Assembly: GCF_000012645.1 (NCBI RefSeq)
Contig: NC_007577.1
Coordinates: forward strand, 1,550,001-1,614,000
From: Prochlorococcus marinus str. MIT 9312
GTDB lineage: Bacteria > Cyanobacteriota > Cyanobacteriia > PCC-6307 > Cyanobiaceae
Direction: 5' to 3'
Length of the DNA: 64,000 nucleotides
The notes beneath the pieces were generated by a model. The model was given only the letters and a program-made list of their open reading frames with translations. It was not told where the DNA came from and searched no databases. This document shows positions 18,001 to 54,056 of this stretch, one piece after another; positions within the stretch are counted from its first letter, which is position 1; every line of letters starts with the position of its first letter. The position numbers and the translations under genes are program-made.

Positions 18001-18071
18001 GGCGGCATGGCCAAGTGGTAAGGCAGAGGATTGCAAATCCTTTATCCCCAGTTCGAATCTGGGTGCCGCCT
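18001..18071 (+). tRNA. tRNA-Cys (anticodon GCA)
   Basis: This is a complete 71-nt cloverleaf. The acceptor GGCGGCA pairs with TGCCGCC, and the anticodon stem AGGAT/ATCCT (allowing wobble at the base) encloses GCA. The T arm is CCCAG TTCGAAT CTGGG and the discriminator is T. Its last 20 bases recur at 18994-19013, marking it as the attachment site of the islet that follows. Confidence 0.96.
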
Positions 18072-18234: not shown

Positions 18235-18397
18235 TACAGAGGAAAATTTATTCCTTAAAGTTTAGTTAGTATTAAAAAAGTATTCAAAATTCCAGATAAT
18301 TTCTAATGGAAGTTAGTATTTATGTTCTAACTCATCCAGCAATGCCGAATATTCAGAACCACCACATTATTAAACTAATTCAGTTCCAAAATAAAAT

Positions 18398-18421
18398 AAG
18401 AGGGTATTTGTTTGCCCTCTT
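18398..18421. other. GC-rich 7-bp hairpin in the islet
   Basis: AAGAGGG (18398-18404) and CCCTCTT (18415-18421) form a perfect 7-bp stem with a 10-nt loop. No U-run follows on either strand, so terminator function is doubtful. It directly precedes the GC-richer stretch and the 26-codon ORF at 18430. Confidence 0.4.
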
Positions 18422-18605
18422 CGAGTCGTATGCACCTCCCTGTCCACAAAGTCGATGAAGTGCTTTTGACTCCTGAATTATTTCTACTCCTAGTGAATGG
18501 GAAAAGATAGTCGTGACAACCACAAAGCACTTTTACTCGGGTAATAATACTCTATGAATTTCAAGTTAATAGGAGGACAATATAGATATAGATCTAGGAG
18601 GTCTT

Positions 18606-18788
18606 ATGAAACTATTCAATCAATTTAACATTCTTCCAAGATACTTAACTGCGTTTAATTATGCAGGATTAAATCTAAACGAAACCCCAAAAGAACTTGA
18701 GAAATGCAACCCTGAGTTTCAAAACTTTTGGGAGAAAGAATGTAGAGAACATCCAACAAATCAAAATTGTTTAATTTACTGCGACTGA
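18606..18788 (+). CDS. Small protein with CP12-like C-terminal Cys tail
   Basis: This 60-residue protein is preceded by a strong Shine-Dalgarno AGGAGGT at 18596-18602, unusual for this genome's weak ribosome sites, which fixes the ATG at 18606. There is no signal peptide or membrane segment. Its tail, CREHPTNQNCLIYCD (C46, P50, C55, Y58), fits CxxxPx4CxxY. This is the spacing of the C-terminal disulfide loop of CP12, the redox linker of GAPDH and phosphoribulokinase. The rest of CP12, including its AWD core, is absent; additional cysteines are C34 and C59. Whether it binds GAPDH is inference; it may equally be an unrelated Cys motif. It is the only solid gene in the islet. Confidence 0.7.
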   Translation: MKLFNQFNILPRYLTAFNYAGLNLNETPKELEKCNPEFQNFWEKECREHPTNQNCLIYCD

Positions 18789-18993: not shown

Positions 18994-19014
18994 TTCGAAT
19001 CTGGGTGCCGCCTT
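18994..19014 (+). repeat. Direct repeat copy 2 (partial tRNA-Cys 3' end)
   Basis: This is an exact second copy of the 21 bases at 18052-18072, with no tRNA 5' part upstream (the preceding bases, CTATTATGTCCAC, do not match). It cannot make a functional tRNA. It marks the right edge of the islet. Confidence 0.9.
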
Positions 19015-53003: not shown

Positions 53004-54056
53004 TTAATCTCTTATGGCGTTCCTTATAAAGTCTGGAGTATCGACAACTCTTTTCAGTTTTTTAAAATCATCCAAAACCTCTCCACAACCATTAACTACG
53101 CACAGCAATGGGTTTTCTGCTATGTGAGTAAAAATTCCTGTTTCATCGCTCAATAAATCATTAATTCCTCTGACTAAAGCTCCACCTCCTGCAAGCATAA
53201 TCCCCCTGTCAACAATATCTGCAGCAAGTTCAGGGGGGGTTCGCTCTAAAGTTCTTTTGACAGCTTCCACTATTTTACTTAGTGTTTCCGCCATGGCCTC
53301 TCTAATTTCTCCTGATGTCAAAGTGACTGACCTTGGTAGACCAGATAAAAGATGTAAACCTCTCACTTCTAAAGTAGTTTTATCAAAATCATCATCTGGA
53401 AATGCAGATCCAATTTTGATTTTGATATCTTCTGCAGTTCTCTCTCCAACAACTAAATTGTGAACTTTTTTAAGATATAGCGCAATTGATTCATTTATTT
53501 CGTCGCCAGCTATTCGAACAGATTCACTTAATACAGTTCCGCCCAAACTTAATACTGCAACCTCAGTAGTACCACCACCAATATCAACAATCATAGTTCC
53601 AATTGGCTCAGTCACTGGTAGTGATGCTCCTATTGCTGCTGCAACAGGTTCATCAATTAAGTGAACTTCTCTAGCTCCGGCTAATCCAGCTTCTCTTACT
53701 GCTCTTCGCTCAACACTGGTAACTCCGCTTGGAATACCAATCACGATTCTTGGGGCTACTATACCTTTGCCTTCGTTACATTTTTGAATAAATGTTTTTA
53801 TCATTTGTTCTGCAGCATCAAAATCTGCGATAACTCCATCTCTTAGTGGTCTTACAGCTCTTATATTGCCAGGGGTCCTTCCAAGCATTAACTTTGCTTC
53901 TTTACCAACAGCCAATGGAATCCCTTCTTCTAAATCCATAGCTACCACAGAAGGCTCTTGTAAAACAACCCCCTTACCTGATACATGTATAAGTGTATTG
54001 GCAGTTCCCAAATCTATGCCAATATCTCTAGAAAATTTAAATCTGTTAAAAATCAC
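53004..54056 (-). CDS. mreB: Actin-like cell-shape protein MreB
   Basis: MreB forms membrane-bound filaments that organise lateral wall synthesis. The 350-residue actin-fold protein has [30 protein letters not shown] (phosphate 1), [19 protein letters not shown] (phosphate 2), and [15 protein letters not shown] (adenosine site). It starts the mreBCD operon and is divergent from ssb. Confidence 0.97.

Follow-up and report, generated by a model that had tools for sequence, protein, structure and literature searches.

Upon oxidation, the C-terminal tail of CP12 forms a disulfide bond and its acidic end is placed in the active site of GAPDH (PMC4436894, PMC3906501; here and below, papers are cited for the portions of their text that were available). 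On the GAPDH side, the negatively charged residues of this end are contacted by an arginine (PMC3728087, in excerpt). The tail is portable, as plant GapB carries it by fusion (PMC4436894), and cyanophage proteins resembling the CP12 C-terminus are already in print (PMC3906501). No phototroph of the nutrient-poor ocean is said to be more abundant than Prochlorococcus, whose regulatory proteins are described as very few (PMC2518516). The gene described here lies in a stretch of 64,000 nucleotides (the window) from P. marinus MIT 9312, the genome of which is a single contig of 1,709,204 bp, and it encodes a 60-residue protein with a CP12-like tail. No paper on its family was found in the open-licence literature, and the available portion of PMC7368042 mentions neither 'CP12' nor 'small protein'. 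Syn_n060, described in the accessible part of PMC5069720, could be a member of the family: it is a 52-residue peptide whose start site is highly active, and both phages and Prochlorococcus have homologues of it.

The gene and its surroundings

An earlier note on this DNA had placed an ORF of 60 residues at 18606-18788, with a strong Shine-Dalgarno sequence. Both were found as it described, the ORF on the plus strand with an ATG start and AGGAGG at 18596-18601, 4 nt 5' of the ATG. The product ends in C46-x3-P50-x4-C55-x2-Y58-C-D60, and the CxxxPxxxxCxxY pattern reported in the note is matched by C46, P50, C55 and Y58; two extra cysteines are present (C34 and C59). This ORF was the sole carrier of C...P....C..Y among the 210 ORFs of at least 40 residues in the window. 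Residue shuffles gave an expectation of 0.0125 such motifs per window, or 0.0005 if the motif ends no more than 3 residues from the C-terminus. Single-sequence searches of Pfam, NCBIfam, PHROGs and the PDB returned nothing significant for the protein, and a search of viral_contigs with the window protein alone returned no relative. Structure prediction was of low confidence (mean pLDDT 57), with a helix at residues 36-48 and an average above 70 in the block 41-50 only, and the model was too weak for use, also in a fold search. The features of the locus are listed below, with their basis where one applies.

18001-18071, plus strand: tRNA-Cys, left edge of the islet
18388-18421, minus strand: terminator-like hairpin (18398-18421), then a T-rich run; sequence, pairs with both sides changed
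18395-18578, minus strand: possible structured RNA of about 185 nt; folding energies, two-sided pair changes
18395-18605, plus strand: conserved leader of 211 nt; travels with the ORF, flanks outside differ
18596-18601, plus strand: Shine-Dalgarno sequence AGGAGG; read in the sequence
18606-18788, plus strand: gene of the 60-residue microprotein with a CP12-like tail; ORF list, relatives, dN/dS 0.158
18606-18635, plus strand: N-terminal module MKLFNQFNIL (family consensus MKLxTPFTI); in tail-bearing and tail-less paralogues
18729-18785, plus strand: CP12-like tail, W42 to D60; alignments, PDB profile searches, dN/dS 0.078
18994-19013, plus strand: 20-nt repeat that exactly matches the 3' end of tRNA-Cys, perhaps what is left of an attachment site

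The word islet, used in the earlier note, is apt for the window copy, which lies between the tRNA-Cys and the 20-nt repeat. The same site is common to four other loci, none of which has a second exact copy of the tRNA repeat. At 9 of 80 named loci (6/60 and 3/20) a tRNA was present in the surrounding DNA, with a tmRNA at one more; a tRNA neighbour is therefore not the rule, and tRNA-linked mobility was rejected as a general explanation. The flanks of the 80 loci formed 9 clusters on the left and 16 on the right, the largest left-flank cluster (56/74) being a product of single linkage and possibly chained. The suggestion that a mobile element bears the gene was borne out in so far as several neighbourhoods are occupied and one member is on phage DNA, but no integrase-sized ORF was found between 18072 and 18993 and the tRNA linkage is not general. 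Of the traits of a tycheposon or another element that a tyrosine recombinase inserts at the 3' end of a tRNA, the window locus shows the 20-nt repeat. The leader-ORF cassette has moved.

Distribution and modularity of the family

Within the genus, 252 of 266 genomes contained a relative of the window protein (E<=0.01). With a 12-row profile, each of seven genomes showed between 4 and 9 matches, at a threshold (E<=0.1) where the counts take in partial matches and frames with stops. Across the taxonomic family, with genomes at least 80% complete, a 16-row profile found matches in 212 of 392, spread over 17 of 40 genera. The matched genera include others that are presumably Prochlorococcus in the wide sense and, matched more weakly, larger genomes taken to be marine Synechococcus. 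This is a real and widespread microprotein family, in which a CP12-type tail is set on a new chassis.

The proteins are modular. An N-terminal stretch resembling MKLxTPFTI is common to most of the paralogues read, and a tail of the form (F/Y)W-x2-(E/R)C-x3-P-x4-C-x2-Y to many of them. The earlier note had proposed looking for homologues that share the tail while varying in the first 30 residues; these were found in the presumed marine Synechococcus variants, which keep the tail on an unrelated N-terminus. The converse also occurs, with the front kept and the tail absent in the B- and F-type paralogues.

C46, P50 and C55 were invariant in alignments A1, A4 and A5; the last of these also takes in four variants whose genera are not Prochlorococcus-like. 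(Alignment A2 holds 14 of the 30 proteins of its set, two of them trimmed.) Tail residues were counted in a set of 203 sequences picked by pattern, in which the 64 tail-less entries include unrelated ORFs. Tyr or Phe occupied the Tyr position in 126 of 139 distinct tail-bearing proteins and was absent in 13, an acidic residue followed within two positions in 112 and was absent in 27, and 11 distinct proteins stop at the Tyr (tail end KVY). The conservation on which the note had staked its proposal held for the Cys spacing and the Pro in these alignments, but was incomplete for the Tyr. No motif was found at locus L096. A match of one relative to PF22905 (E 0.0012) was under the cut-off of that model and was treated as chance.

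Other short ORFs were seen beside family members. A conserved hydrophobic ORF of 33 residues (MTNLxxEILFWTILI...) occurs between two members (L160:1752-1853, L157:1384-1485), and 33-residue ORFs with an LTYRG motif occur near members at L151:1743-1844 and, on the minus strand, L159:375-476; judging by position, one of the latter may be the Yfr6 peptide. At 19 of 30 loci (e.g. L004, L008, L014), another ORF was read as starting just 3' of the window-type ORF and as having a separate ribosome site (GGAGGTTTT ATGAAACTAACTACTCCATTCAC and variants), as in a two-gene microprotein operon; this arrangement is absent from the window.

Similarity of the tail to CP12

Alone, the window protein had no match to the Pfam CP12 model (E<=10) and none to CP12 in the PDB, and five relatives scanned singly likewise had no CP12 match in Pfam. 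The curated score of PF02672 is 22.7 bits; the best outlying relative scored 15.9 and the CP12 of the host 63.8. Among nine outlying variants, four matched the C-terminal end of the Pfam model below its cut-off (E 0.022-0.069) and five had no match. Some of the outlying variants look intermediate.

Profiles of the family did reach CP12 when searched against 177,635 PDB sequences. With A1, CP12 took ranks 1, 3 and 5 of nine (3b1j first, E 0.027); with A4, all four matches were CP12 or CBS-CP12 (E<=10; best E 0.012); and with the broader A5, seven of ten were CP12 or CBS-CP12 (best E 0.00095), the other three being the C-terminal ends of GAPDH chains, two GAPDH-B and one 'GAPDH Aor' (E 1.3-1.8). 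Each time the top match was the CP12 C-terminal peptide of 3b1j, an entry that goes back to a study of the complex of GAPDH with CP12 (PMC3906501, in part). A control with the alignment reversed, the exact reversal being confirmed, gave one PDB match, to an unrelated chain that is not CP12. Profile-profile comparison with 14 CP12s gave P = 1.1e-4, 1.5e-4 and 1e-6, in ungapped alignments confined to the C-terminus (last 22-26 columns). A tblastn search of phages with an E-type paralogue was less discriminating: most of the 234 records returned (E<=10) were cyanophages, annotated CP12 was reached only with E values of 0.2-1, and three unrelated records came first by coverage. The profile search that the earlier note had put forward thus connects the family with CP12, but not the window protein by itself.

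By eye, the closest pair was the E-type tail CELNPSNPRCLVYED and the tail of the host CP12 (L033, 72 residues), CDANPDEPKCLVYDD. The note had stated that the N-terminal Cys pair and AWD core (AWD_VEE) of CP12 are absent, and both are indeed missing from the 60-residue sequence. The host CP12 also lacks both, so that the absence of the remainder of CP12 is not enough to tell the two proteins apart. The window protein has the spacing of the C-terminal Cys pair of CP12 and the central Pro, as well as Y58 and D60 at its end with a Cys in between. Since the window type ends in Y-C-D, the residue right after the Tyr is a Cys and not the acid of CP12. The lead-in to the first Cys is W-x-x-E-C in the family and LExYC in CP12. 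The curated cut-off and the missing Cys pair and core lie against identifying the window protein as CP12 proper, and on the available comparisons that identification fails.

The CP12 likeness might instead be convergent: the CX8C tail would then be a generic disulfide-clamped hairpin serving another redox partner. This is consistent with the tail having only about 20 residues in common with CP12, with a lead-in and, often, a residue after the Tyr that differ from CP12, and with the failure of single sequences to reach CP12. However, A4 and A5 matched nothing in the PDB (E<=10) but CP12 and C-terminal ends of GAPDH chains, conservation extends beyond the Cys spacing to the Pro, the Tyr and the acidic end, and some of the outlying variants have the intermediate look mentioned above. 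We consider convergence unlikely, if still a serious contender. The resemblance goes beyond a chance motif at the level of the family, as the three profiles, the profile-profile comparison and the reversed control indicate. The comparison with CP12 holds at that level; the case for a strict mimic is weakened by the matchless single protein, by the 13 and 27 of 139 proteins without Tyr/Phe or the acid, and by the tail-less paralogues.

Family members in phages

Prochlorococcus phage P-TIM68, whose host is MIT9515, encodes a member (MKLTTPFSVIKNAMSDIKRMHDFNYTLPKENYWDNECKEHPTNSHCLVYCD) between a heat-shock protein and DNA polymerase, annotated as a hypothetical protein (L258:3914-4069; P-TIM68 129293-129448). 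The same phage has, in addition, a CP12 that scores above the cut-off of Pfam; the presence of both led us to reject the idea that the phage microprotein replaces CP12. Members were also present on two IMG/VR contigs (L256 and L257), L257 having the leader too; the left end of L257 carries a tRNA-Ser, and this contig may be host DNA. Phage P-SSM2 has an N-terminal piece of the family only, after an hsp20 gene, and a CP12-tail protein elsewhere. In the latter, near 53825-53896 (L313), a CP12 tail CDNHPDADECKVYDD is set on a different, His-rich front, and the match of the protein to the CP12 model is limited to model positions 47-70.

The conserved leader and a predicted opposite-strand RNA

In most of the relatives found first, the leader was present 5' of the ORF at about 88-98% identity, over part of its length only in L026 and L032, and it was matched in 224 of 266 genomes of the genus (E<=1e-4). 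Among 80 loci it was full in 50 and reduced to its last part in 28; these final ~55 nt (roughly 18552-18605) can be present with the rest missing. It also precedes B- and C-type ORFs, and some leader-associated paralogues are tail-less. De-duplication at 96% reduced 126 leaders to 64, of which 39, together with L142, made up a set of 40 sequences for folding. For leader positions 1 to ~195, folding energy was lower on the minus strand in 35 of these 40; for the full leader, the z-score favoured the minus strand in no more than 8 of 14 (14 of the 64 were folded), and in the leader of the window itself the plus strand was slightly better (z -1.96 vs -1.75). RNAalifold predicted 15 pairs for the 40 sequences, 5 of them with changes on both sides, and weak consensus structures only for the 64 leaders. 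A second hairpin was kept through three sequence classes, with the minus strand lower in energy in 22 of 40. The terminator scan did not list the hairpin at 18398-18421. The opposite-strand RNA is a good candidate for a structured RNA and remains a predicted transcript.

Rfam gave nothing above threshold in the leader, either in the window stretch or at eight loci, and a match to MIR5292 was dismissed (22.9 vs a cut-off of 105). A stand-alone copy of the RNA region lies at L142:1501-1684, that is 1348212-1348394 of a genome which also holds a family member starting at 627532 and which we take to be MED4. The 64 leaders showed no blastn similarity (E<=1e-3) to 13 loci holding the MED4 Yfr genes of Table 1 in PMC2518516, and identity with Yfr8/9, Yfr11/16 or another RNA of that table was rejected.

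A peptide gene with a predicted RNA opposite its leader could also be an antisense-controlled, type I-like toxin cassette, in which a growth-modulating peptide would be held by an antidote RNA. A toxin-antidote idea was reportedly proposed by Steglich in 2008 for other Prochlorococcus RNA pairs. The possible structured RNA and the occurrence of the leader-ORF unit in several neighbourhoods agree with such a cassette; however, RNA and ORF are separable, with 28 of 80 loci keeping the last part of the leader only and the RNA region standing alone at L142. Type I toxins typically have a hydrophobic stretch; none was read in this protein, which moreover is conserved across the genus. In favour of the cassette, the presumed-MED4 member at 627532 ends ~0.1 kb from the phage-induced Yfr14 (627811-628062; PMC2518516, in part). 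The gene adjacent to Yfr14 is named there as PMED4_07142, which we infer to be this member. Overall, a toxin cassette appears quite improbable.

Selection on the window-type gene

A 60-codon ORF was obtained under the search pattern from 77 of the 80 named loci, which with the window gave 71 unique ORFs. The overall dN/dS of this window type was 0.158, with values of 0.120 for codons 1-20, 0.235 for codons 21-40 and 0.078 for codons 41-60. The tail is the most constrained part, and the middle drifts while front and tail are held. The window-type gene is under purifying selection. This pattern points to a translated, selected protein and is silent on expression levels. RiPP cores are variable, and the notion of a RiPP precursor with a conserved leader and a Cys-bearing core, which the short, Cys-containing, multi-copy products with a common N-terminal motif might recall, can hardly be credited when conservation is highest in the putative core and the LanC-like gene (PF05147, the lanthipeptide enzyme covered by the search) has 0 matches in the genome itself.

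Discussion

With a little more belief than doubt, we read these microproteins as portable CP12-tail adaptors that would act redox-dependently on GAPDH. The tail likely works like that of CP12, and because the two tails are so similar the pocket of GAPDH that CP12 occupies would be the simplest target. Under oxidising conditions a disulfide between C46 and C55 would form and the last ~20 residues would fold. The Tyr/Asp end could then enter the cleft that holds the cofactor in Gap2, the GAPDH of the Calvin cycle, like the tails of CP12 and plant GAPDH-B, and thioredoxin would reverse the insertion. The N-terminal module (MKLxTPFTI) may bind something other than the partner recruited by full CP12. 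Each paralogue would be an extra redox-dependent ligand of Gap2, which might compete with the host CP12 or redirect it.

The family suggests an add-on control of carbon fixation. If Gap2 is gripped in this way, carbon flux would be set by a family of small redox ligands and not by CP12 alone, and a phage that has a member as well as a CP12 would gain a second viral handle on carbon metabolism. A bolder extension, which we regard as doubtful, is that of an expandable adaptor set, in which one Gap2-gripping redox tail and interchangeable fronts, spread through genomes by the copying of a leader-ORF unit that brings along an opposite-strand RNA, would be used by picocyanobacteria and phages to plug new partners or controls into the Calvin cycle.

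Among known systems, the Yfr6/Yfr14 and Yfr8/Yfr9 pairs of MED4, as far as the available text of PMC2518516 describes them, resemble the cassette in combining a small peptide with an opposite-strand RNA in variable regions. Cyanophage CP12 is like the family in being phage-borne with a CP12 tail, and P-TIM68 carries both; the CP12s of three searched phages pass the Pfam cut-off, whereas the microprotein was not among the matches. CP12 itself (PF02672) is, like the family, small, with Cys-x3-Pro-x4-Cys-x2-Tyr and an acidic end, and present in cyanobacteria and cyanophages, but the family differs in its MKLxTPFTI front, its multiple copies, its conserved leader and scores under the Pfam threshold. 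Plant GAPDH-B (GapB), chains of which were recovered by the A5 profile (E 1.4-1.8), shares with the family a CP12 tail that is detached from the rest of CP12 and joined to another protein; in GapB the tail is fused to the enzyme itself, whereas in the microproteins it is carried by free small proteins.
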